This document shows positions 422 to 17,808 of a DNA stretch of 44,198 nucleotides, piece after piece. Both the position numbers and the translations under genes were made by a program. Origin of the DNA: Microtetraspora sp. NBRC 16547 (lineage in GTDB: Bacteria; Actinomycetota; Actinomycetes; Streptosporangiales; Streptosporangiaceae); NCBI RefSeq assembly GCF_030268965.1, contig NZ_BSSE01000041.1, positions 1-44,198 of the forward strand. The letters run 5' to 3'. The notes under the pieces are model-generated. The model worked only from the letters and a program-made list of their open reading frames with translations, was not told where the DNA came from and did not search any database. Each line of letters starts with the position of its first letter. Position 1 is the first letter of the stretch.

Positions 422-449
422 TGTGTCTCGAATTGTGAGACCTATGTAC
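422..449 (+). promoter_or_regulatory. Candidate cimA leader promoter overlapping a GTCTC-N7-GAGAC operator (426-442)
   Basis: TTGTGT (422-427) and TATGTA (444-449) are 16 bases apart and could be -35/-10 boxes; the -10 match is imperfect. The perfect inverted repeat GTCTC-N7-GAGAC at 426-442 fills the spacer. The same spaced palindrome occurs twice between ndgR and leuC (15698-15714 and 15769-15785), so this is a candidate NdgR-type (IclR family) operator. The palindrome is seen directly; the bound protein is inferred. Confidence 0.5.
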
Positions 450-486
450 CGAGCAGGTCACGGCGTGTGGCAGACTTCAAGGCACC

Positions 487-528
487 ATGTTCTACGGTCT
501 GCTCATTATCGGCAGGCGCGCTGGCTGA
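487..528 (+). CDS. Branched-chain amino acid leader peptide (MFYGLLIIGRRAG)
   Basis: This 13-residue ORF has consecutive Leu-Leu-Ile-Ile codons (499-510) followed by GRRAG and TGA. It resembles the short leader peptides of actinobacterial ilvB/leuA attenuators, which end in a similar Gly-Lys/Arg-Arg-x-Gly stretch. An AAGG lies 4 bases before the ATG. Its last codons (516-525) form the 5' arm of a perfect 10-bp stem, so a ribosome stalled on scarce Leu- or Ile-tRNA would prevent that stem. The context fits control of the downstream cimA. The sequence logic is strong; expression is not shown. Confidence 0.75.
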   Translation: MFYGLLIIGRRAG

Positions 529-579
529 CATCAGGACAACGCCAGCGCGCAGACCTCTCACGTCCGTGAGGGGTCTTTT
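516..579 (+). terminator. Transcription attenuator in the cimA leader
   Basis: Two consecutive stems are visible. The first is a perfect 10-bp stem (516-525 with 541-550) whose 5' arm lies inside the leader peptide. The second pairs 551-562 with 565-576 (one G-U pair) and runs into TTTT, an intrinsic terminator. The terminator is about 75 bases before the cimA start. The freed arm 541-550 could instead pair with GCGCGCGGC near 614-622, but that alternative is speculative. Confidence 0.75.
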
Positions 580-652
580 GTGTTTTCCGGCACAGCGATA
601 GAGCGGATGACCGCGCGCGGCGAGGAACACCCCGCGAAGGAGATAGCAAGAA

Positions 653-2227
653 ATGGCCGATGACCGCTTCCATGTGTATGACACGACACTGCGTGACGGG
701 GCCCAGCAGGAAGGCCTGAACCTCACGGTCGCCGACAAGCTGGCCATCGCCCGTCAGCTGGACGGCCTCGGCGTCGGCTTCATCGAGGGTGGCTGGCCGG
801 GCGCCAACCCCAAGGACACGGAATTCTTCCGGCGAGCCCAAACAGAGCTCGACCTGAAGCATGCGCAGCTCACCGCGTTCGGCGCGACCCGCCGAGCCGG
901 AGTGAAGGCCGCCGACGACCCGTTGGTGGCCGCACTGCGCGAATCCGGCGCGCCTGTCGTGACACTCGTTGCGAAGAGTCACGACAGGCACGTTGAGCTG
1001 GCCCTCCGCACGACCCTCAAGGAGAACCTCGCGATGATCCGCGACACGGTCTCCCACCTGCGTGCGGAAGGCCAGCGCGTCTTCCTCGACGCCGAGCACT
1101 TCTTCGACGGCTACGCGTCCAACCCGGCGTATGCGCTGGAGGTGCTCCGCACCGCCGCCGAGGCGGGCGCGTCGGTCGTCGCGCTGTGCGACACCAACGG
1201 CGGCATGCTCCCCGACGAACTGGCCGACGTCGTCCACGCCGCCGTCTCCACCGGGGCGCGGGTTGGCATCCACTGCCACGACGACACCGGCTGCGCCGTC
1301 GCCAACACCCTCGCCGCCGTCAAGGCCGGCGCCACCCACGTCCAGGGATGCGCCAACGGGTACGGCGAGCGCTCCGGCAACGCCAACCTGTTCACCGTCG
1401 TGGCGAACCTCCAGCTCAAGAGGGGGTTCGACCTCGTACCCACGCAGTCGCTGAGGGAGATGACCCGCATCGCGCACGCGATCACCGAGGTCACCAACGT
1501 CACGCCCAACTCGCACCAGCCGTACGTCGGCACGTCCGCGTTCGCGCACAAGGCGGGGCTGCACGCGTCGGCCATCAAGATCGACCCGAACCTCTACCAG
1601 CACATCGACCCCGCCCAGGTCGGCAACGACATGCGCATGCTCGTCTCCGACATGGCCGGCCGGGCGTCTGTCGAGCTCAAGGGCAAGGAGCTGGGGTACG
1701 ACCTGACCTCTGACCAGTCGCGCCACCTTGTCGAGCGCGTCAAGGAGCTGGAGTCGCGCGGCCACACGTTCGAGGCCGCCGACGCGTCCTTCGAGCTGCT
1801 GCTGCGCGAAACCGTCGCCGGAGAGCGCAGGCGGCACTTCTCCGTCGAATCCTGGCGGGTCATCGTCGAGCGGCGCCCCTCCGGCGAGGTCGCGAGCGAG
1901 GCCACGGTCAAACTGCACGCCAAGGGCGAGCGCATCGTCGCCACCGGCGAGGGCAACGGCCCCGTCAACGCCCTCGACAAGGCCGTGCGGCTCGCGCTGG
2001 AGAAGCTCTACCCCGAGCTCGCCGGCGTGGAGCTCATCGACTTCAAGGTCCGCATCCTGGAAGGCACCCACGGCACCGACGCCATCACCCGGGTGCTCAT
2101 CACCTCCAGCGACGCCACCGCAGACTGGTCCACCGTCGGTGTCGCCGAGAACATCGTCGAGGCGTCCTGGCAGGCCCTGGAGCAGGCCGTCACCTACGGC
2201 CTCCTCCGCGCCGGGTACAGTGCTTGA
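653..2227 (+). CDS. cimA: (R)-citramalate synthase
   Basis: Condenses pyruvate and acetyl-CoA to citramalate, the first step of the threonine-independent isoleucine route in the cytosol. The 524-residue protein has the HMGL-like TIM barrel (about 1-290) with the N-terminal RDGAQQEG motif, GIHCHDDTG carrying metal ligands and HKAGLHASAI. It ends with a LeuA-type allosteric domain (about 380-524), where isoleucine feedback would be expected. It is distinguished from 2-isopropylmalate synthase by overall similarity to CimA (YDTTLRDGAQQEGLNLT start). The start ATG has AAGGAG at good spacing. A leader peptide, an attenuator and an NdgR-like palindrome precede it. Its product is processed by LeuCD, encoded at 15.8-17.8 kb. 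A dispersed repeat begins at its stop codon. Confidence 0.93.
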   Translation: MADDRFHVYDTTLRDGAQQEGLNLTVADKLAIARQLDGLGVGFIEGGWPGANPKDTEFFRRAQTELDLKHAQLTAFGATRRAGVKAADDPLVAALRESGAPVVTLVAKSHDRHVELALRTTLKENLAMIRDTVSHLRAEGQRVFLDAEHFFDGYASNPAYALEVLRTAAEAGASVVALCDTNGGMLPDELADVVHAAVSTGARVGIHCHDDTGCAVANTLAAVKAGATHVQGCANGYGERSGNANLFTVVANLQLKRGFDLVPTQSLREMTRIAHAITEVTNVTPNSHQPYVGTSAFAHKAGLHASAIKIDPNLYQHIDPAQVGNDMRMLVSDMAGRASVELKGKELGYDLTSDQSRHLVERVKELESRGHTFEAADASFELLLRETVAGERRRHFSVESWRVIVERRPSGEVASEATVKLHAKGERIVATGEGNGPVNALDKAVRLALEKLYPELAGVELIDFKVRILEGTHGTDAITRVLITSSDATADWSTVGVAENIVEASWQALEQAVTYGLLRAGYSA

Positions 2228-2512
2228 CTTGCCTCGCTGCGCTCGGAGGGCGCGGGGCGCCCTTGAGGCGGCTCGTGCCCTTCTCGCTCAGAGTCGCTCG
2301 TTTCTCGCTTCCCACTCGCTCGTCGGTTACTTCCCCGCCGCGCCCCGCGCTGTGCTTACTTGCCTCGCTGCGCTCGGCGGGCTCGGGGCGCCTTTGAGGC
2401 GACTCGTGCCCTCCTCGCTCGGAGTCGCTCGTTCCTCGCTCGGAGTCGCTCGTTCCTCGCTCCGCACTCGCTCGTCGGTTACTTCCCCGCCGCGCCCCGC
2501 GCTGTGCTCGAT
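2228..2512 (+). repeat. Dispersed intergenic repeat family, locus A (two tandem copies)
   Basis: Fills the gap between cimA and the convergent lyase gene. Two copies start with ACTTGCCTCGCTGCGCTCGG at 2227 and 2358 and share the core GGTTACTTCCCCGCCGCG (full cores 2323-2346 and 2475-2498). Copy 2 carries an extra internal 21-bp duplication. The same family recurs at 18487-18584 (reverse) and 42483-42783. It starts right at the cimA stop codon. No coding potential beyond shadow frames is evident. Confidence 0.85.
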
Positions 2513-2538
2513 TTGCCGCGCCTCCGGGGGAGCGGGGA

Positions 2539-4209
2539 TCAGACGAGGTCGGAGTCGGAGATCTTGAAGGACGTGGGGCCGTCGGAGGTGTGGACGATCA
2601 CGGTACGGCCGGAGCACGTCACCTCGGGCTTGGCGGTACCAGGCACGACGATTGTCAGCAGGGACGAGGCCGCGGGCGAGACCACCACCGGGGCGGCGAC
2701 CTTCTGCATGTAGGCGGGGGAGATCCACCCCTGGTAGGGGTTGGTCTGGCCGCGTACCACCTTCTGGCCGCCGATCGGCTTGCACGAGGGCATGGAGAGT
2801 TGCACCAGCGTCGCCCGCCACGATCCTTCGCCGATGACGACACGGCCTCCGGCGTTGGAGAAGACCTTCATCGACGGGTCGAAGTGCCACAGGTTGCGCA
2901 CCTTGCCCCCGGCCGCGTCGAGCACCGCCATGACGTCCTGGTCGTGGTTCACGAGCACCGCCCTGGTACGGCGCACGCCGTACGCGTTGTCGGTGACGGT
3001 GAACGACTGCCGGTCCTTGCCCACGGAGCGGTGGATCAGGGACGACGGCGTGCGGCCGCGGAACCTCTTGCCCACGACCACCGGGACGTTGTGCGCCTCC
3101 GGCGTCATCGTCCAGCGACGGTACGGATTGTTCTCGTATGAGTGGAAACCCGCCTCGGTGAGCAGGTTGCGGCCCTGCGCGTAGTAGGTCACGCCCAGGT
3201 GGTCCTCGTGGCCGTGGTGCTTCATGCCCGGCCCGAACCTGATCGAGTAGTAGGCCGACTGAGGGTCGCCCCAGGCCGTCCGGCCGAAGACGTATCCGGC
3301 CTTGAACACCTGCACGGTCTCGGAGGAGTGGGCGAACCCGGCGGGCTGGACGTCCGGCGCGCCGTCCCCGATCGGCACCATGTACCCGTTGGGCTGCGTG
3401 GCCGCGCTGATGTGCTTGGGCAGGCCGTCCCATCGCTTGGCGAGGTCGTCGGGCACCTTGAGGCCGCAGTCCTTGATGGTGTCCATCGCGACCCTGAGCC
3501 GGTCGTGCACGTAGATGGCGTACCGGGGAGCCTGTTCCCTGAGCGAGCCCTCGGAGTCAATGTCGATCTTCATCGACTTGACCATGCGGTCGAGCGCGAG
3601 GTCCTTCCAGCCCTTCTGGTTGTAGCGGCAGCCGATCCGCAGGAGGCCGATGTCCTGGTCGAGCCCGTGGTTGTGCCCGGCCTTGTAGAAGCGCGGGTCG
3701 GCCAGCACCTTCGCGTGCACGGCCAGGCTGTCCTTCAGCCAGGCGTCGGAGACGTACCTGCTCAGGCAGACCAGCGCCGGGGCGCGCAGCGCGGTCGGGT
3801 GGTCCTGCCAGGCGTACTTGTTGGTGGTCCGCCCGCCGTAGGGGTTCTTCTCGACCCAGTCCTTGGCGATCTCGCTCGCGCGGTTGAGATAGGCCTGCTT
3901 CCCGGTGGCTTCGTAGTCGGCCACCAGCCGTCCCATCCACCGCAGCGACTGGAAGACCATCTGCCAGGACCGGCTCTTGTACGGGTCGAGCGACCAGTCG
4001 ACCTTGGACCCGATCTTGACGGCGGGGCGATCGAGGAACGACAGCTCGCCGTTCATGATGTCCTCGGAGGTCGGTGTCGCCGGGAGCCAGTCTCCCTGGC
4101 ACTCCGGCGTGCGTGCGGGCGCCTGAGCGGCTTCGGCGGGAACGACGAGCCCGCCGCCGGCGAGGGTCAGTACGGCGATGAGGCCAAGAGCGTGAGTGCG
4201 GGGGCGCAC
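2539..4209 (-). CDS. Secreted heparinase II/III-like polysaccharide lyase
   Basis: A 556-residue exported protein. The GTG at 4209 is chosen because GGAAGG lies 7 bases before it and a good signal peptide follows: Arg-containing start, hydrophobic LGLIAVLTLAGGGLVV, and Ala-x-Ala cleavage near AEAAQA. An alpha-helical toroid-like region (about 60-300) is followed by a beta-rich region with GPGMKHHGHEDHLGVT near residue 325, typical of heparinase II/III C-terminal domains, where His/Tyr residues act in beta-elimination of uronic-acid glycans. The substrate cannot be told. No sulfatase, SusCD-like or ABC sugar genes lie beside it, so it appears to be a stand-alone degradative enzyme. It is convergent with cimA across the repeat array. 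Confidence 0.8.
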   Translation of the reverse strand: MRPRTHALGLIAVLTLAGGGLVVPAEAAQAPARTPECQGDWLPATPTSEDIMNGELSFLDRPAVKIGSKVDWSLDPYKSRSWQMVFQSLRWMGRLVADYEATGKQAYLNRASEIAKDWVEKNPYGGRTTNKYAWQDHPTALRAPALVCLSRYVSDAWLKDSLAVHAKVLADPRFYKAGHNHGLDQDIGLLRIGCRYNQKGWKDLALDRMVKSMKIDIDSEGSLREQAPRYAIYVHDRLRVAMDTIKDCGLKVPDDLAKRWDGLPKHISAATQPNGYMVPIGDGAPDVQPAGFAHSSETVQVFKAGYVFGRTAWGDPQSAYYSIRFGPGMKHHGHEDHLGVTYYAQGRNLLTEAGFHSYENNPYRRWTMTPEAHNVPVVVGKRFRGRTPSSLIHRSVGKDRQSFTVTDNAYGVRRTRAVLVNHDQDVMAVLDAAGGKVRNLWHFDPSMKVFSNAGGRVVIGEGSWRATLVQLSMPSCKPIGGQKVVRGQTNPYQGWISPAYMQKVAAPVVVSPAASSLLTIVVPGTAKPEVTCSGRTVIVHTSDGPTSFKISDSDLV

Positions 4210-4402
4210 GCCAGTTCCTTCCGACCACGGTGAGGGGGGTTGATCATGCTGTCCGAATAGTAATGATTCGGTCAAGCGGCAGGTTACATCGTTAGCAGGA
4301 TTTGACGTCCCTGCCCAGCCGAGGGAGCCCGACTTCCGCTCGTCGGCTGGTCGAGCCGGCCCGCCGTGCCCCCATCCGGTCGCCGTGCGCCCGGGACACG
4401 AC

Positions 4403-5530
4403 CTAAGTGGCCAGACGCGCCTTCAGGGCGAAGGGCACCACCAGGAACGCCGCGCCGGCGGTGAGGAAGGCCGCCGGCCCGACAGCACCGGCGACACCGC
4501 CCACCAGGGCGACCATGCCCGGGACAGCGGGCTGGGCGATCCCCCACGACGACCCCTGGAAAGCGAACCAGCGAGGACGTTCGGCTTCGGGAGCCGCATC
4601 GGCGACCAGAGCCTGCCAGCGGCCCAGCAACACCCCGTTCACGGCCGTCCATGCCAGATAGGCCCCGACGGTGAGCGGGAGATTCTCCGCGCGGGCCATC
4701 GTCAGGGCGAGCAGTCCGAGCAAGACGGCCCCGCCCGCCAGAACCAGGCCGTGAGGGCGCGGGGTCAGCAGTCGTCGCGTCGCCCACAAGGTCAAGGGAG
4801 CGAGGGCGGCCGCTCCGGTGAGAGCGACACCCGGGAGCCACGCGGGCGCGCCGCGCTGCAAGAGCACCAGGGGCATGAACATCACCACCGCCAGGTAGCC
4901 GACGGCGAAGGCGGTGCCCGCGAGGGTGAACCGCAGCAGCAGAGCCGATGGTCTCCAGCGCTTGCGGTCCTCTCCGGGAACCGGTCGCTCCGCGTTCCCG
5001 CGGGGAAGGAAGAACAGAGCGATCGCGGCGGCCGCCAGGCAGGTGGCGGCGTCGACGACCACCAGCCAGCGCACCCCCAGCGGTAGCAGCGCCGCGGCGA
5101 TCAGTCCGCCGATCGCACCTGCGGCCACCAGCGAGCTGCCCAGCAGCCCGTACAGCTCCTGGCGCTGATCATCCTCGGTGACCTGGGCCACCAGCTCCTG
5201 GGTCGCCGGTTCATAGATCTCGAACGCCAGGCCCACCAGGACCACGGCGATCAACACCTGAGGGGGAGTCCGCGCAGCCGACAGGGCGACCAACGACAGA
5301 CCTGTCGCGCAGAGACCCGCGGCCACCACGATCCGAGGCGGCAGCCAATCGAGGACGAAAGCCCCGGCCCAGCGTGAGAGCAGGGCCGCGACGCCGAAGA
5401 GCGCCAAAGCGAGCGACGCGAGGTCGGGACCGGCGAACACCGCCAGGAAGGCGAGCGCGTACGCGCCCATCTGGTTCAGTATCCGGACCCACAACAACGC
5501 CTTGGCCGCCCCAGGCATCGAAGCGAACAC
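4403..5530 (-). CDS. MFS transporter, 12-TM type
   Basis: About 375 residues, almost entirely hydrophobic, with 10-12 membrane segments. It starts with a segment around GAYALAFLAVFAG and has a central cytoplasmic loop rich in charged residues (RGNAERPVPGEDRKRWRP) between the two halves, the usual MFS layout. Three starts are possible. GTG at 5530 is preferred because GGAGG lies 8 bases upstream; GTG at 5539 overlaps that Shine-Dalgarno sequence, and ATG at 5518 would also fit. The substrate is unknown. Small-molecule or drug export is common for this subgroup. It lies upstream of the lyase gene in the same direction with a gap of about 190 bases. Confidence 0.8.
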   Translation of the reverse strand: MFASMPGAAKALLWVRILNQMGAYALAFLAVFAGPDLASLALALFGVAALLSRWAGAFVLDWLPPRIVVAAGLCATGLSLVALSAARTPPQVLIAVVLVGLAFEIYEPATQELVAQVTEDDQRQELYGLLGSSLVAAGAIGGLIAAALLPLGVRWLVVVDAATCLAAAAIALFFLPRGNAERPVPGEDRKRWRPSALLLRFTLAGTAFAVGYLAVVMFMPLVLLQRGAPAWLPGVALTGAAALAPLTLWATRRLLTPRPHGLVLAGGAVLLGLLALTMARAENLPLTVGAYLAWTAVNGVLLGRWQALVADAAPEAERPRWFAFQGSSWGIAQPAVPGMVALVGGVAGAVGPAAFLTAGAAFLVVPFALKARLAT

Positions 5531-5794
5531 CCCTCGCACCTCCGACAGGCCCGCACGGCATCACCGTCGCGAACATCGAGCGAACAGACCAGGCGTCATC
5601 GTTCCAGGCGGCACCGACAAGAACGCACGGGTGAAGGGCCAGGGGATCCGCTTCCTGTTCGAGGACCAGGCGAAGCGGAAGCCGGGCAGCGCGGCGGCGG
5701 AAACGGTCAGGGATGGGACAGCGGGGCGAATTGCCGCGAACCCACTCGATGCTTGACCTTCTCCCGGGAATGACTCGCGGAAAGGAGGCAAGCG

Positions 5795-6139
5795 ATGATC
5801 AAAGGCGCGCACTGGCTCATGTACAGCCGAGATCCGGACGCCGACCGGGCCTTCCTCCGCGACGTGCTCGGCCTGGGGAGCGTCGACGCCGGCAGCGGGT
5901 GGCTCATCTTCCGGTTACCTCCCGCCGAGTTGGGGGTGCATCCCACGGAAGAGCGGCCGATGTTCGATCTCTACCTGATGTGCGACCGGATAGCGGAGAC
6001 GGTCAAGGAACTGAGCGCGAAGGGGGTCACGTTCACTCGGGAGGTCGGTGACGAGGGGTACGGCCTCGTCACCGGATTCCGCCTCCCGGGCGGCGCCGAG
6101 ATCGGCCTCTACGAGCCACGCCACCCCACCGCCATCTGA
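5795..6139 (+). CDS. VOC superfamily (glyoxalase/bleomycin-resistance fold) protein
   Basis: A 114-residue single-domain protein with the paired beta-alpha-beta-beta-beta pattern of the VOC fold: MIKGAHWLMYSRDPDADRAF at the start, then DVLGLG, and near the end GLVTGFRLPGGAEIGLYEPRHP, where the Glu/Tyr strand is usual. An exceptionally strong AAAGGAGG lies 6 bases before the ATG. These proteins bind metals and act as isomerases, dioxygenases or drug-binding proteins; which one is not clear. The roughly 260 bases upstream contain no convincing gene. Confidence 0.8.
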   Translation: MIKGAHWLMYSRDPDADRAFLRDVLGLGSVDAGSGWLIFRLPPAELGVHPTEERPMFDLYLMCDRIAETVKELSAKGVTFTREVGDEGYGLVTGFRLPGGAEIGLYEPRHPTAI

Positions 6140-6180
6140 CCTCCCCGCTTCATGCTCCGCACCGCGAGGGGCGCGGCGAA

Positions 6181-6558
6181 TCAAGCACTGTGCTTGGGTG
6201 TGGCGCTCTGCACGACTTCGAAGGACCACAGCTCGGCGCCCGAGGCCGCCGGACCCTGACCATGCCCGTGGCCCTGCTGCGGGGCCTGGCCGTGCCCGTG
6301 CCCGTGGCCGGCTTCGGCAGCGGCCTGGGCGTGTCCCGCCTGGAAGGCACGGCTCTCCTGCCAGCGCTGGAAGTCCTCCTCGCTGCGCCACCGGGTGTAC
6401 ACCATGTAGCGATCCGTGCCCTCGACCGGCCGCAGCAGTTCGAACCACTCGAATCCGTCGGCCGTCTCCACCATCCCCGCGCGGTTGGCGAAGCGCTTCT
6501 CCAGCTCATCGCGCATCTCCGCGCTCACCGTCAACACGTTGATCTTCACGACTGACAT
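6181..6558 (-). CDS. Antibiotic biosynthesis monooxygenase (ABM/IsdG-like) protein with His-rich insert
   Basis: A 125-residue protein with the dimeric ferredoxin-like ABM fold: MSVVKINVLTVSAEMRDELEKRF, then GFEWFELLRPVEGTDRYMVYTRW and SEEDFQRWQES, closing with ELWSFEVVQSA. Relatives include IsdG/MhuD-type heme-degrading enzymes and quinone monooxygenases. GAGGAG precedes the chosen ATG, so the longer upstream frame is not used. The odd part is a His/Gly-rich segment (about residues 80-105) with two GHGHG clusters inserted before the last strand, where relatives usually carry a Gly-rich loop. It could bind metal or heme; this is inference. Confidence 0.8.
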   Translation of the reverse strand: MSVVKINVLTVSAEMRDELEKRFANRAGMVETADGFEWFELLRPVEGTDRYMVYTRWRSEEDFQRWQESRAFQAGHAQAAAEAGHGHGHGQAPQQGHGHGQGPAASGAELWSFEVVQSATPKHSA

Positions 6559-6736
6559 CGCGGGCTCCTCTGGTGAGTGAATTCGGACAGTGAATTCGGA
6601 CAAGGCCACACTACGAGTCACCCAGGTCGCCCCCGGGACGCGCCACGGTGGTTCGCGCCGACATCGACCCTCGTTCCCGCTGATCACCCGATCCTGCCGG
6701 GCGAACCTTGCCGGTCAGGGCACTAGCCTTGTGACC

Positions 6737-7507
6737 GTGCGTATCGCGAGGTTCTCCAAAGGCGACGGCGTCGCTTTCGGCGTGGTGGAAGAGGGCGAGC
6801 AGGTCGTCGCCAGGATCGACGGGCATCCCTTCGGCGGGGTCGAGCTCACCGGGGAAAGATATCCGCTCGCCGAGGTCAGGATCGTCGCGCCGATGCTGCC
6901 CAGCAAGATCGTGGCGATCGGCAAGAACTACTCCGACCACGCGCGCGAGATGGGTGGCGAGGCCCCTGAGGAGCCGCTCATCTTCCTCAAGCCGAGCACC
7001 TCGGTGGTCGGCCCGGGGGAGGCCATCGCGTACCCCACGAAGCTGTCGCAGCGGGTCGACTACGAGGGTGAGCTGGCCGTGGTCATCGGGCGGCTCTGCC
7101 GGGACGTGCCGGTCGAGCGGGCAGCCGAGGTGATCTTCGGGTACACCTGCGCGAACGACGTCACCGCCCGCGACCTGCAGCAGCGGGACGGCCAGTGGTC
7201 CAGGGCCAAGGGCTTCGATACGTTCTGCCCGGTGGGCCCGTGGATCGAGACCGACCTGGACCCGAGTGACCTCGCCCTCACGACCAGCGTGAACGGCGAG
7301 CTCAAGCAGAGCGCGCGCACGTCGCTCCTGCTGCACGACATCCCTGCGCTCATCGCGTATGTGAGCGCGGTCATGACGCTGCTTCCCGGCGACATCATCC
7401 TGACCGGCACGCCCGCCGGCGTCGGGCCCATGTCCGTCGGTGACGAGGTCAGCGTCGGCATCGAAGGAATCGGAACTCTCACCAACCGGGTGATCTCTCG
7501 TGACTGA
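6737..7507 (+). CDS. Fumarylacetoacetate hydrolase (FAH) family protein
   Basis: About 256 residues with the FAH C-terminal-domain fold: the [17 protein letters not shown] lead-in, then [29 protein letters not shown] and [14 protein letters not shown] with the acidic metal ligands, and [15 protein letters not shown] near the end. It probably hydrolyses or decarboxylates an acylpyruvate-like compound (the FahA/YcgM group). GTG at 6737 is chosen because TAGCCT (6724-6729) lies 7 bases before it and no Shine-Dalgarno is present, pointing to a leaderless mRNA; GTG at 6731 is the alternative. Its end overlaps the gltX start by 8 bases, so the two are translationally coupled. Confidence 0.85.
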
Positions 7508-8870: not shown

Positions 8871-8890
8871 GACTCGTGCGGCCCCGCGTG

Positions 8891-8924
8891 GCCGGCCGCC
8901 CGCGTGTGATCGCGGGCGGCCGGC
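8891..8924. terminator. Hairpin between convergent gltX and M3 peptidase genes
   Basis: A perfect 14-bp inverted repeat (8891-8904 with 8911-8924, loop TGTGAT), very GC-rich and without a T run. It sits between two convergent genes and probably ends transcription in both directions, in the U-poor style common in actinobacteria. Confidence 0.7.
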
Positions 8925-8971
8925 GTGGCGGGATCAGACCGCCCGCGTGATCACGGCCGGGTCATGGCGGG

Positions 8972-10951
8972 TCAGAGCAGGCCGCGGCGGGCGAGCAGGG
9001 GCTCGATCTGCGGGTCACGGCCCCGGAAGTCGCGGAACGCCGTCAGGGCCTCCACGCTGCCGCCCTTGGACAGCAGGCGCTGCCGGAACCGGTCGCCGTT
9101 CTCCCTGAGCAGTCCGCCGTTCTCCTTGAACCACTCGACCGTGTCGGCGTCGAGGACCTCGCTCCAGATGTAGGAGTAGTAGCCCGCGCTGTAGCCGCTG
9201 GACCAGATGTGCGCGAAGTAGGTGCTGCGGTAGCGCGGCGGCACCGCGGGCAGGTCCACGCCCGCGGTCCGCAGGGCCTCGGCCTCGAACTCCTCCGCGT
9301 CGCCGCCGGTGTAGGTCGTGTGCCAGGCCCAGTCCAGCAGCGTCGCGGCGAGGTACTCCACCGTCGCGAATCCCTGGTTGAACTTCTGCGACTCCAGCAT
9401 CCGGTCCACGAGTTCGCGCGGCATGGGTTCGCCGGTCTCGTAGTGCCTGGCGTAGTTCGCGAGGATCTCCGGGTCGGTCGCCCACATCTCGTTGACCTGC
9501 GAGGGGTACTCGACGAAGTCCCTCGGCACCGCCGTACCCGAGAACCGGGGGAAGCGGACGTCGGAGAACAGGCCGTGCAGGGCGTGCCCGAACTCGTGGA
9601 ACATCGTGTTGACCTCGTCGAAGGTCAGCAGCGTCGGCTCGCCCTTGACGATGTTGAGGTTGTTGACCACGACCGGCCGGGTGCCGTCGAGGGCCGACTG
9701 CTTGACCAGGCTGTTCATCCACGCCCCGCCGCGCTTGGAGGCGCGGGCGAAGAAGTCCCCGAGGAACAGGCCCAGCGGTGAACCGTCCTCGTTGAACACC
9801 TCGAAGACCCGGACGTCCGAGTGGTAGCCCTGCAGGTCCTCGCGCTCCCGGAAGGTGAGGCCGTACAGCCGCTGCGCCGCGTAGAAGACACCGCGCTCCA
9901 GGACGCTGTTCAGCTCGAAGTAGGGCCGCATGCGGGCGCTGTCGATGTCGTACCGGGCCTTGCGCACCTTCTCGGTGTAGAACGACCAGTCCCAGGGCTG
10001 GATCGCGTGCCCGGCGAGCTCCTCGAGGTCCGACTGCTCCTTGCGGGCGTTGGCCACGGCGGGCGGGACGAGCCGGTCCAGCATCTCGGAGACCGCCTGG
10101 GTGGTCCCGGCCGTCTGGTCAGCCAGGACGTACTCGGCGTGGTTCGCGTACCCGAGCAGTCTGGCCCGCTCCTCGCGCAGCCGCGCGATCCGGGTGATCA
10201 GCTCGGCGTTCTCCGCTCCGCGCCCGGTGGACGCCTTGTGGATCCGCTCGCGGAGCGCCCTGTGCGTGAGCTCGGCGAGCGCGGGCTGGCCGGTGGGCAG
10301 GACGAGGGTGATGAGGTATCCCGCGTCCAGTCCCCGCTCCTTGGCGGTCTCCTGGAGGCCCTGGACGGCGTCCGGCGAGAGCCCGTCGAGCTCCGCGGCG
10401 TCCTCGACCAGGACGGCCCGCGCGTTGGTGTCGGCGAGCAGGTTCTGCTGGAACGTGGTCGCCAGCGTGGACAGCTCCTCGTTGAGCTCCCTGAGCCGCG
10501 CCTGCTCGTCCTCTCCGAGGATGGCTCCCGCCCGGGTGAAGTCGGTGAGATAGCGGTCGAGGAGCCACTGCTGCTCGTCGTCAGCTGTCTGGACGGCCCG
10601 GATGCGGGCGAACAGCCGGGGGTTCAGGTGGATGGCGTCGGCGTGCTTGGACAGTTTGGGCGTGATGTCCTTCTGGATCTCCTGGACACCCGGCGTGGTG
10701 TCGGAGGAGGCCTGGTTGAAGAAGACCGTCGAGACCCGGTCGAGGAGCCGGCCGGACCGCTCCAGAGCCTCGATCGTGTTCTCGAAGGTCGGCGGCTCGG
10801 GATCGTCGGCGATCGCCGCGATCTCGGCGAGATGCTCGGCCATCCCCTGCTCGAACGCCGGGACGTAGTGCTCCTCCCGGATCTCCTGGAAGGGAGGCAG
10901 TTGGTACGGCAGGGAGCTGGGGCTCAGAAACGGGTTCACCGTCTGGGACAT
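8972..10951 (-). CDS. M3 family zinc peptidase (peptidyl-dipeptidase Dcp/oligopeptidase A type)
   Basis: A 659-residue cytosolic metallopeptidase. The zinc site FHEFGHALHGLF is near residues 448-459, and the downstream Tyr-rich block SGYSAGYYSYIWSEVLDAD near 580-600 is typical of Dcp/OpdA, which trims short peptides. The start at MSQTVNPFLSPSSLPYQ follows GAGGAG at good spacing; the longer frame upstream is not conserved-looking. Length matches the family (about 680). It is convergent with gltX and divergent from the tRNA cluster. No signal peptide is present. Confidence 0.93.
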   Translation of the reverse strand: MSQTVNPFLSPSSLPYQLPPFQEIREEHYVPAFEQGMAEHLAEIAAIADDPEPPTFENTIEALERSGRLLDRVSTVFFNQASSDTTPGVQEIQKDITPKLSKHADAIHLNPRLFARIRAVQTADDEQQWLLDRYLTDFTRAGAILGEDEQARLRELNEELSTLATTFQQNLLADTNARAVLVEDAAELDGLSPDAVQGLQETAKERGLDAGYLITLVLPTGQPALAELTHRALRERIHKASTGRGAENAELITRIARLREERARLLGYANHAEYVLADQTAGTTQAVSEMLDRLVPPAVANARKEQSDLEELAGHAIQPWDWSFYTEKVRKARYDIDSARMRPYFELNSVLERGVFYAAQRLYGLTFREREDLQGYHSDVRVFEVFNEDGSPLGLFLGDFFARASKRGGAWMNSLVKQSALDGTRPVVVNNLNIVKGEPTLLTFDEVNTMFHEFGHALHGLFSDVRFPRFSGTAVPRDFVEYPSQVNEMWATDPEILANYARHYETGEPMPRELVDRMLESQKFNQGFATVEYLAATLLDWAWHTTYTGGDAEEFEAEALRTAGVDLPAVPPRYRSTYFAHIWSSGYSAGYYSYIWSEVLDADTVEWFKENGGLLRENGDRFRQRLLSKGGSVEALTAFRDFRGRDPQIEPLLARRGLL

Positions 10952-11051
10952 CGGGGGCTGCTCCTCATCGCTGTTCTCGACGCTGGTGGCTCTTCTCAGC
11001 CTGGCACAGCAGGGCTGTGAGCAGTGATGAGGAGCCACGCGGGCAATCGTT

Positions 11052-11081
11052 TTGGTGGTGGGCCGCAAGCTGGGCTATTCT
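11052..11081 (+). promoter_or_regulatory. Candidate promoter for the tRNA cluster
   Basis: TTGGTG (11052-11057) and TATTCT (11076-11081), 18 bases apart, lie about 40 bases before tRNA-Gln. TATTCT fits the actinobacterial TANNNT -10 box. Confidence 0.45.
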
Positions 11082-11121
11082 TTCGGAGTCGCCAGCGAGC
11101 CCCAAGGGGCGAGCGAAACGA

Positions 11122-11193
11122 TGGGGTATAGTGCAATTGGCAGCACGACTGATTCTGGTTCAGTTAGTCTAGGTTCGAGTCCTGGTACCCCAG
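11122..11193 (+). tRNA. tRNA-Gln (CTG)
   Basis: A full cloverleaf can be drawn: acceptor TGGGGTA with TACCCCA, anticodon stem ACTGA/TCAGT around loop TTCTGGT (anticodon CTG), and a T-loop with GGTTCGAGTCC. The discriminator is G and no CCA is encoded. Confidence 0.95.
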
Positions 11194-11257
11194 CTGCATC
11201 CCTCCTTCGGGAGATGCTACGGATTCGGGTTCCCCCCGGTCCGATCACAGTGTGCAC

Positions 11258-11333
11258 GGTCCCGTCGTCTAGTGGCCCAGGACGCCGCCCTCTCAAGGCG
11301 GTAGCGGCGGTTCGAATCCGCTCGGGACTACCA
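11258..11333 (+). tRNA. tRNA-Glu (CTC), copy 1, CCA encoded
   Basis: Acceptor GGTCCCG pairs with CGGGACT (first pair G-U). The anticodon stem CCGCC/GGCGG encloses loop CTCTCAA (anticodon CTC), and the T-arm is GGCGG TTCGAAT CCGCT. Discriminator A at 11330 is followed by an encoded CCA (11331-11333). It differs from copy 2 at only two positions in the tRNA body. Confidence 0.95.
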
Positions 11334-11343
11334 CACACTGCGA

Positions 11344-11416
11344 GGTCCCGTCGTCTAGTGGCCTAGGACGCCGCCCTCTCAAGGCGGTAACGGCGGTTCG
11401 AATCCGCTCGGGACTA
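11344..11416 (+). tRNA. tRNA-Glu (CTC), copy 2, no encoded CCA
   Basis: Same cloverleaf and anticodon as copy 1, with two base changes (GCCTAGG for GCCCAGG in the D arm and TAACGG for TAGCGG in the variable region). The discriminator is followed by CTTT, so CCA must be added by enzyme. It lies 10 bases after copy 1's CCA, so the two are probably co-transcribed. Confidence 0.95.
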
Positions 11417-11427
11417 CTTTCTCTCCA

Positions 11428-11456
11428 CCCTCGGAACGATCGTTCCGAGGGTTTTT
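11428..11456 (+). terminator. Intrinsic terminator of the tRNA cluster
   Basis: The palindrome 11428-11438/11441-11451 (11 bp) is followed directly by TTTTT (11452-11456), a textbook terminator just after the second tRNA-Glu. Confidence 0.9.
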
Positions 11457-11498
11457 CGTTGTCTCGGTCCCCGCTTGCCGCCGATCTTCATCACCTCA

Positions 11499-11544
11499 TT
11501 GACTGGACAGCGTTGCTATCCAATACTGGAGAGCGACACTATCT
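11499..11544 (+). promoter_or_regulatory. Promoter with two related operators before the CXC thioredoxin-like gene
   Basis: TTGACT (11499-11504) and AATACT (11522-11527) are 17 bases apart. The spacer is exactly an imperfect inverted repeat, GGACAGC-GTT-GCTATCC (11505-11521). A second related 17-mer, GGAGAGCGACACTATCT, lies at 11528-11544 (13 of 17 identical, 23-base spacing). The arrangement fits repressor binding across the promoter; the repressor is not identified. Confidence 0.6.
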
Positions 11545-11559
11545 AATGGAGGTGTGGGG

Positions 11560-12546
11560 ATGTTCACGTTGCTGGCGGACGGCCGCGATGAGGTCGTCCC
11601 GGGGCTGACCGTCCCGGCCGGAGAGAAGGTCCTCGGTTGGGAGCGCAAGCCGCACGGCTGGTGCCGGGGGGACGCCTGCATACCGGCCTTCCGGGCCACG
11701 GCCGCCGAGGCCGCCGCCGGCACCGACCTGGTCGCGTTCGCCGGGTTGCTCGGGCGCGGTGTGGTGGTCGACCACGACGAGAGGCTGATCGCGGTCGGTG
11801 ACGCGCGGACGATCAGTCCCGAGGGGGCTCCGGAGTTCGAGCTGGACGGCTTCCGTCTCGGCGGCCTCCGCGGTACCAAGGTGGCGCTCGTCTTCTGGGC
11901 GTCGTGGTGCGGCTGCCGCTACGACCTGCCCGCCTGGGAGCTGCTGCACCGGGAGCTGTCCCCGGGCGGCTTCAGCGTGGTCAGCGTCTCACTCGATCGG
12001 AACCGTGAGGAGGCCGCCCCGTGGATCGAGGACGTGACCCATCCGGCGCTGGTCGACATGGAAGGCGCGGTCGCCGAGATGTACGGCGTCATCAACGTCC
12101 CGACCGTCGTGTGGATCGACGAGGAGGGGCGGGTCGCCCGGCCGCAGGACACCATGACCGCGACCGACACGTTCCGCGAGATGAACGGGCTCTCCTCCGA
12201 GGCCGCCACGGCGGCCCTGCGCCGATGGGTCGTCGAGGGCGAGTCCGGCCTGTCCGAGCAGGCCGTACGGGAGCACCTGCGCGTCCCGACCGAGGAAGAG
12301 CGGCTGGCCCGGCTGCACGCGCGCCTCGCCACCTGGCTGTTCCGCCGTGGCCGCGCGGACGCCGCCCGCGGGCACGCCCGCCGGGCGGCCGAGCTGGCGC
12401 CGCACGACATCGCCATCCGCCGGGGGCTGATGCCGCTCGACGGCGTGGATCCGTTCGGGGACGACTACTTCCGGCTTCGTGCTGAGCTCGAGGCCAGTGG
12501 GACGCCGATCTACCGGCCGCTGCCCGACTGGGCGGGGGAGCGGTGA
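11560..12546 (+). CDS. Thioredoxin-fold (TlpA/ResA-like) protein with a CXC motif
   Basis: A 328-residue protein without signal peptide. The central TlpA-like domain (about 85-225) has KVALVFWASWCGCRYDLPAW, then SVSLDRNREEAAPW and VINVPTVVWIDEEG with the cis-Pro. Where relatives have WCxxC this protein has WCGC, so the pair is CXC near residues 118-120. The N-terminal part has its own Cys pair (CRGDAC near 29-34), which could act with it. The C-terminal 80 residues look like a TPR-like helical tail (RGRADAARGHARRAAELAPHD). The ATG at 11560 has GGAGG 7 bases upstream. A regulated promoter with paired operators precedes it. It is probably a cytosolic redox or repair protein; function is not established. 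Confidence 0.7.
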   Translation: MFTLLADGRDEVVPGLTVPAGEKVLGWERKPHGWCRGDACIPAFRATAAEAAAGTDLVAFAGLLGRGVVVDHDERLIAVGDARTISPEGAPEFELDGFRLGGLRGTKVALVFWASWCGCRYDLPAWELLHRELSPGGFSVVSVSLDRNREEAAPWIEDVTHPALVDMEGAVAEMYGVINVPTVVWIDEEGRVARPQDTMTATDTFREMNGLSSEAATAALRRWVVEGESGLSEQAVREHLRVPTEEERLARLHARLATWLFRRGRADAARGHARRAAELAPHDIAIRRGLMPLDGVDPFGDDYFRLRAELEASGTPIYRPLPDWAGER

Positions 12547-12560
12547 CGTGATGGGGCGGG

Positions 12561-12590
12561 TTGCGGTGCGCGGCACCTGGGTTCCAAAAT
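12561..12590 (+). promoter_or_regulatory. Candidate leaderless promoter of the thioesterase gene
   Basis: TTGCGG (12561-12566) and CAAAAT (12585-12590) are 18 bases apart, and the ATG follows 7 bases after the -10 box, so transcription would start at or beside the start codon. No Shine-Dalgarno is visible. Confidence 0.45.
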
Positions 12591-12597
12591 CAGACTC

Positions 12598-13095
12598 ATG
12601 ACCACGACACTGCGCTCGCGCACGCACAGCTGGGCCCCGCCGACATTGCCGGGGGACGTCGCGGAGTTGAGCGGCCTGGAGTTCCTCCAGGCCATGCTCG
12701 ACGGCGTGATCGCCGCTCCGCCGATCGCCGGCACGATGGGTTTCACGCTGCTGAAGGTCGAGCCCGGGGTGGCGATCTTCGAGGGGGAGACGGGAGAGCA
12801 CCAGTACAACCCGATGGGCTCCGTGCACGGGGGCTACTTCGCCACCCTGCTCGACTCGGCCCTCGGATGCGCCGTCATGACCATGCTCCCGGCCGGGACG
12901 GCCTACACGACCACCCAGTTGAACGTGCACATGGTCCGCCCGGCCTTCGCGCACACCGGGCTTCTGCGGTGCGAGGCGAAAGCCCTCCATGTCGGCCGGA
13001 CCGTCGCGACCGCCGAGGGGCGGCTGGTCGGCTCGGACGACGGCAAGCTGTACGCGCACGGCACGACGACCTGCGCCGTTTTCGCGATGCGCTGA
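12598..13095 (+). CDS. PaaI-type hotdog thioesterase
   Basis: A 165-residue protein with the hotdog fold. The signature NPMGSVHGGYFATLLDSALGCAV (near residues 71-93) holds the HGG turn and catalytic acidic residue of the PaaI/YbgC-like acyl-CoA thioesterases. It is followed by TTQLNVHMVRPAF and a last strand ending TTTCAVFAMR. It probably hydrolyses an aryl- or acyl-CoA. The ATG seems to be leaderless. It stands alone between the thioredoxin-like gene (about 50 bases upstream, same strand) and a convergent gene. Confidence 0.88.
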   Translation: MTTTLRSRTHSWAPPTLPGDVAELSGLEFLQAMLDGVIAAPPIAGTMGFTLLKVEPGVAIFEGETGEHQYNPMGSVHGGYFATLLDSALGCAVMTMLPAGTAYTTTQLNVHMVRPAFAHTGLLRCEAKALHVGRTVATAEGRLVGSDDGKLYAHGTTTCAVFAMR

Positions 13096-13164
13096 CGGTC
13101 CCGCCGCCGGGAAAACGGACCGGCCCCGGGCGGCGATCGTCGCGGACATGACAGCGGACATGAC

Positions 13165-13198
13165 AAGGGGACACGCCCTCTCCAGAGCGTGTCCCCTT
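13165..13198. terminator. Bidirectional hairpin terminator
   Basis: A perfect 12-bp stem (13165-13176 with 13187-13198) with a 10-base loop lies between the thioesterase gene and the convergent acidic-protein gene. A CTTCTTC run follows on the plus strand. Confidence 0.8.
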
Positions 13199-13229
13199 CT
13201 TCGTGCCCTTCGGGGCCGTGGAGCGCCGC

Positions 13230-14930
13230 CTAGCCGCGCGACCGGGCCTTGAAGAGCGCCCGCTTGGCGGCCTTGCCCACCTGCTTGTCCGGGTGGGCCT
13301 CGTCGACGGCTTCGAGCAGCTCCTCCAGGTGCGGGTGAGGCACCTTCCAGATCACGTCGAGCAGGCCGATGATCTGCTGCGCGGGGCCGATGTCGTGCAG
13401 GCTGCTGACGAACTCCGCGCGGCCGAGGCCCGCCGAGATCGTCCACATGTCGAGGATGAGCCAGTGCGTGTCGGCCTGGGTGGGCTCCGGGGCGTCCTCG
13501 ACGTCCAGCTGGGCGAGGTGCGTCGCGGCGTACGGCCGGAGCGAGGGCTCCTTGAGCGCGTCGGTCCAGGCGGGCACGGCCACCTCGCCGAGGGAACCGA
13601 CCAGGCTGGCGGCCTGCACCCGGACCAGGGCGTCGGCCTCGTCCTCCGCAGCGGCGGCGAGCAGCTCGGCGGCGGCCTGGGCGGGATCGCGCAGGGCGAG
13701 CCACGCGGTGAACTCGGCGTCCGCCTCCTCCTCCGGCAGGTCGGCGCTCAGCGACAGCAGGTCGAGCGCGGACATCGCGTCGATGGCGGGCCGGGCGTCG
13801 ATGTCGATGTCCGCGTCGTCCACGAGGTGGACCACGCCTTCGGTGCCGAGGGGCGTGAGACGCACCTCGTCGTCCTCGACGGTCACCATGCCGTAGCCGG
13901 TCAGCCAGGCGAGCACCGGCGCCAGCGGGTCGCCGGCGGCGGCCCAGGCGTCGGCGCCGAGGTCGTCGTACTCGCTGACCGCCTCGGTCAGCTCCTCGCG
14001 CAGCTCTCCGACGGAGCGCGAGCCGCCGTTGACCAGCACACGGATCAGCAGCGCGCGGGTCAGCCCCGACAGGGCGAGGGTCAGGTCGTCGTCGTCCAGC
14101 TCGGGGTCGCCGTAGTCGACCGAATGAAGGCCGAGCAGCCAGGCGTCGAGCACATCGTCGTCGTCCTCGAACGGCCAGGCGGCGGTATCGGGGTCGACGC
14201 TGACCGTGTCGTCATCGTCCGGGGCGATGAACTCCAGGTCGATGGCGAGGTTCCACAGGTTCCACAGGGTCTGCGCGTCGCTCAGGCCGACGGTGCGCAC
14301 CGCCTCCTTGACCTCTTCCTCGGTAAGGAGGGTGTCCTCGCCGACCTTGCGGCCGGAGCCGACCCACGCCGCGAGGTCGCGGGCCTGGGCGATGAGCGTG
14401 ACCCCGCGAGCCGCCGCCGCGAGCTCGGAGTCCGGTCGCATCCGGATCGTGGGGAGGTCGGCGATCTCGTCGGCGAACGGCTCGAAGTCGCCGAGGCTCT
14501 CGTCCTCGTCGTCCTCGAACTCGTCCTCCTCCTCGTCCCAGTCGCGCTCGGCGATGACGTCCTCCATCGCCTCGACGAAGTCGTCCTCGATCTCGTCGAG
14601 CTCGGCGAGGAGGGTGTCGATCGAGGCCGACCCCTTCGCCAGGCGGTCCGTCTCGGACAGGAACGTCAGATAGGACCGCAGGGCGGGAACCATGCCGTCG
14701 GCGGCCTCGTCGGGATCCTCGACGACCTGCGGGATGCGTTCCAGCAGGACGGTGCGCAGGTCACCCGCCTTCCACAACCCCGCGTCGTCGCGGGCATCCA
14801 GGCGATGCCAGAGAACGGCCGGGCCCACCAGGTCGGGATCGCTGTCCGGAGCGTTGGCGGGAGCCCAGAGGATGAACTCCTGGAGCAGTGGACGCAGTTC
14901 AGCGGCGGCTGCCTCGATGCGGTCTGTCAC
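13230..14930 (-). CDS. Very acidic conserved actinobacterial protein of unknown function
   Basis: 566 residues with no recognised enzymatic motif. It is strongly acidic, with an Asp/Glu-only stretch near residues 127-150 (DWDEEEDEFEDDEDES) and further DDDD runs near 238 and 280. The last 200 residues look like paired helices (DALVRVQAASLVGSLGEVAVPAW, SLRPYAATHLAQL), suggesting HEAT-like repeats, and the C-terminus is basic (GKAAKRALFKARSRG). GTG at 14930 is preceded at 6 bases by TAGGCT, so it is likely leaderless. A scaffold or chaperone-like role is only a guess. It is divergent from nothing and sits upstream of the ndgR 3' end on the same strand. Confidence 0.75.
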   Translation of the reverse strand: MTDRIEAAAAELRPLLQEFILWAPANAPDSDPDLVGPAVLWHRLDARDDAGLWKAGDLRTVLLERIPQVVEDPDEAADGMVPALRSYLTFLSETDRLAKGSASIDTLLAELDEIEDDFVEAMEDVIAERDWDEEEDEFEDDEDESLGDFEPFADEIADLPTIRMRPDSELAAAARGVTLIAQARDLAAWVGSGRKVGEDTLLTEEEVKEAVRTVGLSDAQTLWNLWNLAIDLEFIAPDDDDTVSVDPDTAAWPFEDDDDVLDAWLLGLHSVDYGDPELDDDDLTLALSGLTRALLIRVLVNGGSRSVGELREELTEAVSEYDDLGADAWAAAGDPLAPVLAWLTGYGMVTVEDDEVRLTPLGTEGVVHLVDDADIDIDARPAIDAMSALDLLSLSADLPEEEADAEFTAWLALRDPAQAAAELLAAAAEDEADALVRVQAASLVGSLGEVAVPAWTDALKEPSLRPYAATHLAQLDVEDAPEPTQADTHWLILDMWTISAGLGRAEFVSSLHDIGPAQQIIGLLDVIWKVPHPHLEELLEAVDEAHPDKQVGKAAKRALFKARSRG

Positions 14931-14966
14931 CCCGCCAGCCTAGGGCTAACCGGGCATGCTCTCTAA

Positions 14967-15683
14967 TCAGTTAGCGCGCCGCATCGCCTCGGTGATCCGT
15001 TCGGCGGCGGACACGACGGGGGCGGCGTGCATGCGGCCCGGCGTGCGGGTGAGCCTCTCGATCGGCCCGGAGACGGAAACCGCGGCGATGACCTTGCCCC
15101 CGGCACCCCGGATGGGCGCCGAGACGCTGGCCACGCCCTGCTCGCGCTCGCCGACGCTGTGCGCCCAGCCTCTCCTGCGTACGCTCGCGAGCGTGGCGGC
15201 GGTGAACTTCGCGCCACGCAGGCCGCGGTGCAGCCGGTCGGGCTCCTCCCAGGCGAGCAGGATCTGCGCGGCCGAGCCCGCGATCATGGGCAGTGCGGAG
15301 CCGACGGGTACGGTGTCACGCAGGCCGCTCGCGCGCTCGGCGGCGGCCACGCAGACCCGCTCGTCACCCTGGCGCCGGTAGAGCTGGGCGCTCTCCCCGG
15401 TGAGATCGCGGAGGTGCGTCAGGACGGGGCCCGCGACGGCGAGCAGCCGGTCCTCGCCGGCGGCCGTGGACAACTCCGACAGCCGAGGGCCCAGAACGAA
15501 ACGCCCCTGGGTGTCACGGGAGACGATGCGGTGATGCTCGAGTGCCACCGCGAGCCGGTGTGCCGTCGGCCGGGCGAGGCCGGTCGCCTGGACGAGCTGG
15601 GCCAGGGAAGCCGGTCCCGCTTCCAGGGCGTTGAGTACGAGTACGGCCTTGTCGAGCACTCCGACTCCGCTAGAGTTGTCCAT
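14967..15683 (-). CDS. ndgR: IclR-family regulator, NdgR/AreB type
   Basis: A 238-residue transcription factor with an N-terminal winged helix (MDNSSGVGVLDKAVLVLNAL, LAQLVQATGLARPTAHRLAVALEHH) and a C-terminal IclR effector domain (GESAQLYRRQGDERVCVAAAE, ASVSAPIRG, VSVSGPIERLTR). In Streptomyces this ortholog, divergent from leuCD, controls branched-chain amino-acid genes. The long upstream frame is rejected; MDNSSG is the family start. The ATG lies inside a 17-base element that is repeated 71 bases upstream. Two GTCTC-N7-GAGAC palindromes lie in the shared intergenic region, fitting autoregulation plus leuCD control. Confidence 0.93.
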   Translation of the reverse strand: MDNSSGVGVLDKAVLVLNALEAGPASLAQLVQATGLARPTAHRLAVALEHHRIVSRDTQGRFVLGPRLSELSTAAGEDRLLAVAGPVLTHLRDLTGESAQLYRRQGDERVCVAAAERASGLRDTVPVGSALPMIAGSAAQILLAWEEPDRLHRGLRGAKFTAATLASVRRRGWAHSVGEREQGVASVSAPIRGAGGKVIAAVSVSGPIERLTRTPGRMHAAPVVSAAERITEAMRRAN

Positions 15684-15785
15684 ACCCCGATACTGCCGTC
15701 TCGCGATCCGAGACGCAAACACAATGGTCCGGATTGCCCGGTAGGCTTGTCCATATCCCGATATTTCTGTCTCATGATGAGAGAC
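15676..15785. promoter_or_regulatory. Duplicated operator region between ndgR and leuC
   Basis: Two copies of a 39-bp element (15676-15714 and 15747-15785, 71-bp period) share TTGTCCATA(C/T)CCCGATA and each ends in the perfect palindrome GTCTC-N7-GAGAC (15698-15714 and 15769-15785). The first copy contains the ndgR start codon. The second is 35 bases before the leuC start. The same palindrome precedes cimA at 426-442. Candidate NdgR operators. Confidence 0.75.
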
Positions 15786-17220: not shown

Positions 17221-17808
17221 ATGGATGCCTTCACCACGCACACCGGCAGGGCCGTCCCCCTGCGCCGCAGCAACGTCGACACCGACCAGATCATCCCGGC
17301 CGTCTGGCTCAAGCAGGTCAGCCGCACCGGCTTCGAGAAGGGGCTGTTCTCCGCCTGGCGGGAGGACCCGTCCTTCATCCTCAACAACCCCGCCTACCAG
17401 GGCGCCTCGATCCTGCTGTCCGGCCCCGACTTCGGCACCGGCTCCTCGCGGGAGCACGCCGTATGGGCGCTGCAGCAGTACGGCTTCCGCGTCGTGATCG
17501 CGGCCCGCTTCGGCGACATCTTCCGCAACAACTCGACGAAGATGGGCCTGCTCCCGGTCATCCTGCCCGCGGAGGTCGTGGAGCGGCTGCAGGCTGCGGC
17601 CGAGGCCGACCCCACCGTCGAGATCACCGTCGACCTTGCCGAGCGCGAGGTCAGGCTGGGCTCGGAGTCCTGGTCCTTCGAGATCGACGACTACACGCGC
17701 TGGCGGCTCATGGAGGGCCTGGACGACATCGGCCTGACCCTGCGTCACGCCGACGACGTCGCGGTGTACGAGAATGGACGGCAGCCATGGCTGCCGACAA
17801 CTGTCTGA
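17221..17808 (+). CDS. leuD: 3-isopropylmalate dehydratase, small subunit
   Basis: The swivel-domain partner of LeuC; 195 residues, normal length. Family motifs are present: [15 protein letters not shown] near the start, and [18 protein letters not shown] with the catalytic Ser loop, followed by [24 protein letters not shown] lies before the ATG. The 3' end overlaps the next small gene by 22 bases, suggesting one transcript leuC-leuD-small protein. Confidence 0.97.

Follow-up and report, generated by a model that had tools for sequence, protein, structure and literature searches.

A GTCTC-N7-GAGAC palindrome as the probable NdgR operator of ndgR, leuC, cimA, thrC and ilvB in Actinomycetes

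The NdgR/AreB/LtbR regulators of Actinobacteria are the closest described counterparts of the system analyzed here, which we found in a 44,198-bp stretch of Microtetraspora sp. NBRC 16547 (contig NZ_BSSE01000041.1, positions 1 to 44,198; hereafter the window), where the palindrome GTCTC-N7-GAGAC occurs upstream of the citramalate synthase gene cimA and in the gap between ndgR and leuC. According to the accessible part of the report on Streptomyces coelicolor NdgR (PMC4340878), its regulon by chromatin immunoprecipitation sequencing (ChIP-seq) comprises 34 genes, including ilvB, leuB and the ndgR-leuC region, and its motif is a 15-bp imperfect palindrome. A consensus for NdgR/LtbR, KTYCRSMWYSYGRRM, is given in the available sections of a second source (PMC8222616). 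A 2023 paper (PMC10331944), in the portion at hand, describes NdgR as activating leuCD and ilv genes, reports that an S. coelicolor ndgR deletion has less of the fatty acids derived from isoleucine and leucine and more of those derived from valine, and suggests that NdgR acts on unidentified genes of the upper 2-ketobutyrate supply.

The regulator encoded in the window resembles this group in being the divergent neighbor of leuCD and in its 79-81% identity to named Streptomyces loci other than S. coelicolor NdgR. The system shares with those described the targets ilvB, leuB and ndgR-leuC, and its operators fit the published consensus in the centered register. With group 1 operators of the IclR family, such as the GenR operator ATTCC-N7(5)-GGAAT in the available sections of PMC8222616, it has in common the 5-bp arms, the 7-bp center and the dyad symmetry, but not the arm sequence. 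It departs from S. coelicolor NdgR, as the accessible text presents it, in that the published motif is of the GTCCAC-N3-GTGGAC type (GTCCAC...GTGGAC), whereas the operator here reads RTYYC...GAGAY, and in showing two preferred distances to the -10 element that are not described there.

From comparative sequence analysis, we consider it probable that GTCTC-N7-GAGAC is an NdgR operator common to ndgR, cimA, thrC, ilvB and leuC, through which NdgR would repress its own gene and activate the others. That the operator belongs to NdgR is a claim we make with high but not full confidence, and NdgR is the likely binder because ilvB, leuB and leuC have been published as its targets. The sites in the window and the regulator are as follows.

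425..441, no strand assigned: NdgR-type operator upstream of cimA, GTCTCGAATTGTGAGAC, an exact match scoring 26.3 bits with a matrix trained on ndgR promoters
15698..15714, no strand assigned: operator 1 of the ndgR-leuC gap, an exact match between the putative -35 and -10 elements of ndgR
15769..15785, no strand assigned: operator 2, an exact match within the second copy of a promoter-operator module
14967..15683, minus strand: ndgR, IclR-family regulator (Pfam HTH_IclR, 44.4 bits; IclR_C, 95.9 bits)
15690..15695, minus strand: putative -10 of ndgR, CAGTAT, 6 nt before the ATG
15713..15718, minus strand: putative -35 of ndgR, TTGCGT, with a spacer of 17

These three sites are the only exact matches in the window, and they exceed chance: dinucleotide-shuffled windows contain 0.13 exact matches on average, and none of 100 shuffles reaches three. 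The first-pass annotation of this DNA had noticed all three and located the latter two correctly; it placed the first, which lies at 425-441, at 426-442. Its expectation of 0.04 matches assumed equal base frequencies in a window with 69.8% guanine plus cytosine (GC). Permitting one mismatch adds a single match (39465-39481), and the resulting total of four in the window is not above chance.

The decisive evidence is comparative, beginning with the ndgR promoters. We compiled 138 ndgR upstream regions from three sets (30, 80 and 28, some genomes being present more than once); in 133 of them the distance from the palindrome's start to the ndgR ATG is 31 bp, at least 8 of its 10 fixed bases are matched in 134 and 7 in the other 4, and the sites comprise 61 distinct 17-mers. 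A best site of at least 15 bits was also present in all 11 of a further group of distant, hand-picked ndgR genes. The site is flanked by TTGC[GA]T-like and CA[GA]TAT-like hexamers, the putative -35 and -10 elements. Since the latter sits 6 nt before the ATG in the window, the transcript would be leaderless, and an operator lying between the two elements should block the promoter, which suggests that NdgR represses its own gene.

To extend the search to other genes we used a 17-column matrix, built from ndgR-promoter sites only and made symmetric, with a 9-bit threshold fixed in advance and the reversed matrix as a control. Among the upstream regions of cimA, 25 of 58 reach the threshold (0/58 with the reversed matrix; one more locus was too short and was dropped), as do 5 of 22 added later, for a total of 30/80. 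Upstream of thrC, the threonine synthase gene (TIGR00260), it was reached in 22 of 59 loci (reversed, 0/59), and upstream of ilvB in 19 of 30 loci (reversed, 0/30) and in 5 of 9 later ones (reversed, 0). Neither thrC nor ilvB was part of the training data; thrC had been chosen after an exact match (L003) and ilvB after a match in a scan of the flanks of genome G001. The ilvB site of the window's own genome, ATCTCATATAGTGAGAC (L307), is one base off the exact pattern and was for that reason missed by the exact search. The arms of the cimA operator are exact in all four Microtetraspora genomes, which carry three different inner sequences among them. The operator is conserved at the ndgR, cimA, thrC and ilvB promoters and in the ndgR-leuC gap, with variable inner bases, and can be written in a looser form as RTYYCR-N5-YGAGAY. 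The proposal of the first-pass annotation that NdgR co-regulates cimA and leuCD gains support from the presence of the site at ndgR promoters throughout the class, from the recovery of cimA sites in many genera by the matrix and from the status of ilvB as a published target; the regulon would be wider than proposed, given that thrC and ilvB also carry the operator.

A candidate site was also found before a further published target, leuB. In genome G001 a 24.4-bit operator (L298:14641-14657) precedes a short open reading frame (ORF), MTRQVSVLITCRGGA, followed by a ROK-family gene, leuB and ilvE. Among 12 loci of this ROK gene, three (G001, G002 and G020) have a passing site within 700 bp, that of G020 lying at 570 bp from a distant homologue; in G003 the site is 3.7 kb from the ROK gene, and in the window's own genome the 700 bp next to the ROK gene preceding leuB yielded no site.

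The ndgR-leuC gap contains two operators and several candidate promoter elements for leuCD.

15820..17208, plus strand: leuC, isopropylmalate dehydratase large subunit
17221..17808, plus strand: leuD (Aconitase_C domain)
15742..15747, plus strand: TAGGCT, putative -10 of leuC, 27 bp after operator 1
15671..15676, plus strand: TAGAGT, possible -10 of leuC within the 5' end of ndgR; TANNNT in 134 and TAGAGT in 115 of 138 loci

Operator 2 belongs to a second copy of the stretch holding the start, promoter and operator of ndgR, offset by 71 bp and identical to the first at 37 of 55 bases; 8 of 108 loci have as their best match an exact site located 101-103 bp ahead of ndgR. The idea that operator 2 is a mere roadblock for leuC transcription was weakened by the finding of operator 1 at 27 bp before the putative leuC -10, and repression of leuC through operator 2 is possible. 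The hexamer at 15671-15676 is also ndgR coding sequence, where it gives a TCT serine codon, a codon that is rare in GC-rich actinomycetes. The conservation of TAGAGT, taken together with the rarity of TCT, indicates that a leuC promoter may overlap the start of the ndgR coding sequence.

The distance between operator and promoter bears on how NdgR would act outside its own promoter. The gap between the operator end and a -10-like hexamer measures 28 bp at 18 thrC sites out of 22 and 29 bp at another; among the 25 cimA sites the gap is 27-30 bp in 17, 39 bp in four and unread in four, the hexamer forms in both searches having been picked after viewing the sequences. When the analysis was repeated with a plain [TC]ANNNT pattern, the peaks at 28 bp for thrC and at 27 bp for leuC remained; for cimA the peak at 28 bp also remained (11/25), but one at 40 bp rose to the same height (11), a class exemplified by L048 (at 41 bp), where the hexamer, CACCAT, precedes the leader ATG. 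In leuC, where distinct sequences were counted, the pattern occurs 27 bp after the operator in 12 of the 13 that carry the duplicated module and in 36 of the 48 of a probable Streptomyces type, an assignment based in part on ndgR promoters shaped like those of named Streptomyces loci. Each of the 22 ilvB sites scoring 6 bits or more is accompanied by a TTGAC at 14-16 bp and, at 37-40 bp (39-40 in 19 of them), by a -10-like hexamer, whose distance follows in part from its having been sought only 16-19 bp after TTGAC. In 14 of 15 Streptomyces-type cimA promoters, the best window within 450 bp is one lying 27-29 bp ahead of the -10. The distances to the putative -10 form two main classes, one of 27-30 bp (mainly 28) and one of 37-40 bp (mainly 39-40), the farther comprising ilvB and four cimA sites. 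They are separated by one turn of the helix (~11 bp), as would be needed by an activator that touches RNA polymerase from one face, and phased activation at cimA, thrC, ilvB and leuC is what this spacing suggests as its best reading.

The same sites could be bound by NdgR with the opposite outcome, so that cimA, thrC and ilvB would be repressed. IclR regulators are able to act both ways, and the Corynebacterium glutamicum orthologue LtbR is named a repressor of leucine genes in the title of a cited reference; the operator, however, lies upstream of the -35 at a phased distance in these promoters, as opposed to its position between -35 and -10 in ndgR, and NdgR is called an activator of leuCD and ilv genes in the available portion of PMC10331944. 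We regard repression of these genes as unlikely.

Several results weigh against a shared NdgR operator with an activating role. Sites are absent from 50 of 80 cimA, 37 of 59 thrC and 15 of 39 ilvB loci. No site was found in any of the 11 loci of the last set of other cimA genes (L383-L393) or in the four Streptomyces-type thrC loci (L277, L280-L282), and the 9-bit threshold is reached by just 6 of the 15 Streptomyces-type cimA sites. The 67 distinct ndgR-leuC gaps from other lineages show no hexamer peak at 27 bp. The published target ilvD lacks a site at 9 bits in the 500 bp before the match start in all eight loci (0/8), and no site at this threshold was detected in two 3.2-kb leuA regions (G000 and G001), which may or may not contain the gene start. 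The cimA site is lacking in four genomes that gave no NdgR match at E 1e-50 (L260-L262 and L265), but the same is true of relatives that do have NdgR (L263, L264, L384 and L390); G038, without an NdgR match, has no ilvB site, and neither do G030, G031 and G036, which have NdgR. Both cimA and thrC are outside the S. coelicolor regulon as given in the accessible part of PMC4340878, and the 18 15-mers published there score at best a mean of -0.77 bits per position against our matrix, with the centered register as the best of 13. Lastly, the 7.82-Mb genome to which the window belongs contains 18 exact matches, as against one for the pattern read backwards and about seven expected at 70% GC. Four of the 18 are accounted for by cimA, the ndgR-leuC gap (two) and thrC, and the remaining 14 look unrelated (10 within predicted ORFs, one within an ORF in a relative and three unassigned). 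In the first-pass annotation, a genome-wide scan for the exact pattern had been put forward as a check, with many unrelated hits to count as refutation; given these 14 matches, the exact pattern alone would not prove a regulon, and counting it was rejected as a way of finding one. Of twelve chosen site regions from other Microtetraspora genomes, two are in the thrC promoter, seven within predicted ORFs and two unassigned, and one (L090) by eye resembles a terminator stem.

The mismatch with the ChIP data could also mean that another transcription factor controls ndgR, cimA, thrC, ilvB and leuC through this operator, NdgR being one of its targets. The different appearance of the S. coelicolor ChIP motif and its poor score are what this explanation has in its favor. 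It has to be set against the class-wide presence of the site at ndgR promoters, as expected of autoregulation, against the published, direct targeting of ilvB, leuB and leuC by NdgR, and against the fit of the NdgR/LtbR consensus in the same register. Of the 15 positions of KTYCRSMWYSYGRRM, 14 are matched by the ndgR operator, 13 by cimA, 12 by ilvB, 12 by the second leuC site and 11 by thrC, the centered register being the best of three tried in each operator; the chance that a random 15-mer would fit equally well ranges from 0.0002 (ndgR) to 0.049 (thrC). A different factor seems to us quite improbable. That the palindromes of the window are chance or structural repeats devoid of a regulatory role, as the many unrelated genome matches might suggest, is scarcely credible for ndgR, cimA, thrC and ilvB, where the arms persist at fixed places in many genera while the inner bases diverge, and where the reversed matrix finds nothing.

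Besides the proposed control by NdgR, cimA would be subject to a second one, exerted by a leader peptide with isoleucine codons and a terminator.

653..2227, plus strand: cimA, citramalate synthase (TIGR00977, 642 bits, cut-off 450)
471..476, plus strand: putative -10 of cimA, CAGACT after TGTGG, 29 bp after the operator
487..528, plus strand: leader peptide MFYGLLIIGRRAG, a nearly leaderless 13-residue ORF downstream of the putative -10
516..550, plus strand: leader hairpin (516-525 with 541-550), stop codon in the loop, predicted fold
551..576, plus strand: intrinsic terminator hairpin followed by a T run, predicted fold

The peptide contains consecutive Leu-Leu-Ile-Ile codons, and the leader has a folding energy of -45.5 kcal/mol (z -4.9). 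A short ORF with two consecutive Ile codons precedes cimA in 65 of 79 loci, compared to 3/79 on the other strand and 0/79 after shuffling. In an alignment of 22 chosen relatives, from which the structure itself was predicted, all 440 of 440 cells in the stems are paired, 5 of 20 pairs are changed on both sides (a number reached by 4 of 500 shuffles) and the covariation score lies above those of all 500 shuffles and of the slid versions; further pair types are no more numerous than expected by chance, since 500 of 500 shuffles reach their number. No Rfam family matches the leader at gathering thresholds. With its short ORF holding regulatory codons ahead of a predicted terminator, the leader has the makeup of an attenuator and may act as one. 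It resembles the actinobacterial ilvB attenuators (PMC1262725, PMC8079986), which in the available text also consist of a short leaderless peptide with branched-chain codons followed by a terminator; the Streptomyces lividans ilvB leader peptide is MRTRILVLGKRVG, to be compared with MFYGLLIIGRRAG here, and the eight S. lividans leaders in the accessible part of PMC8079986 do not include one for cimA. Some 220 bp ahead of the cimA operator lies the end of a TnpB-like gene (1-204; Pfam PF07282, 64.9 bits).

In thrC, an S-adenosylmethionine (SAM) riboswitch (L003:1622-1768) lies between the NdgR-type promoter and the gene, and is present in all 12 relatives searched (chosen from 30). Placed after an NdgR-type promoter, it would join branched-chain and methionine signals on thrC.

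CimA, LeuCD, LeuB and ThrC take part in making 2-ketobutyrate. Combining these elements, NdgR bound between the -35 and -10 of ndgR would shut off its own gene, and from positions some 49 or 60 bp ahead of the starts of cimA, thrC, ilvB and leuC, which share one face of the helix, it would activate those genes. NdgR would thereby set the supply of 2-ketobutyrate both from pyruvate (CimA, LeuCD, LeuB) and from threonine (ThrC), and it would also control IlvB, the first enzyme using 2-ketobutyrate, with further control after NdgR by the riboswitch in thrC. We lean slightly towards this complete scheme, in which a single operator serves for autoregulation and for activating both entries to 2-ketobutyrate together with IlvB, ribosome stalling adds a check on cimA and ilvB and SAM one on thrC, and loss of this control is the cause of the isoleucine defect of ndgR mutants.

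On this reading cimA becomes a concrete candidate for the upper 2-ketobutyrate supply gene under NdgR in S. coelicolor, because 14 of 15 Streptomyces-type cimA promoters have their best window at the expected distance. The gene thrC qualifies as a candidate within the family of the window's organism, not in Streptomyces. Feeding as they do two routes to 2-ketobutyrate, cimA and thrC could explain the isoleucine defect. Searches of the full-text literature, with most subscription journals outside their scope, returned no link of NdgR or another IclR regulator with actinobacterial citramalate synthesis or of NdgR with threonine synthase, for which the single listing concerned cyanobacteria; for citramalate synthase leader peptides, they turned up only Methanothermobacter. 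The sharper definition of the NdgR operator and its spacing rule could aid regulon annotation across Actinomycetes. Elsewhere in the window, three transfer RNA genes are found at 11122-11417, for Gln (ctg), Glu (ctc) and Glu (ctc).

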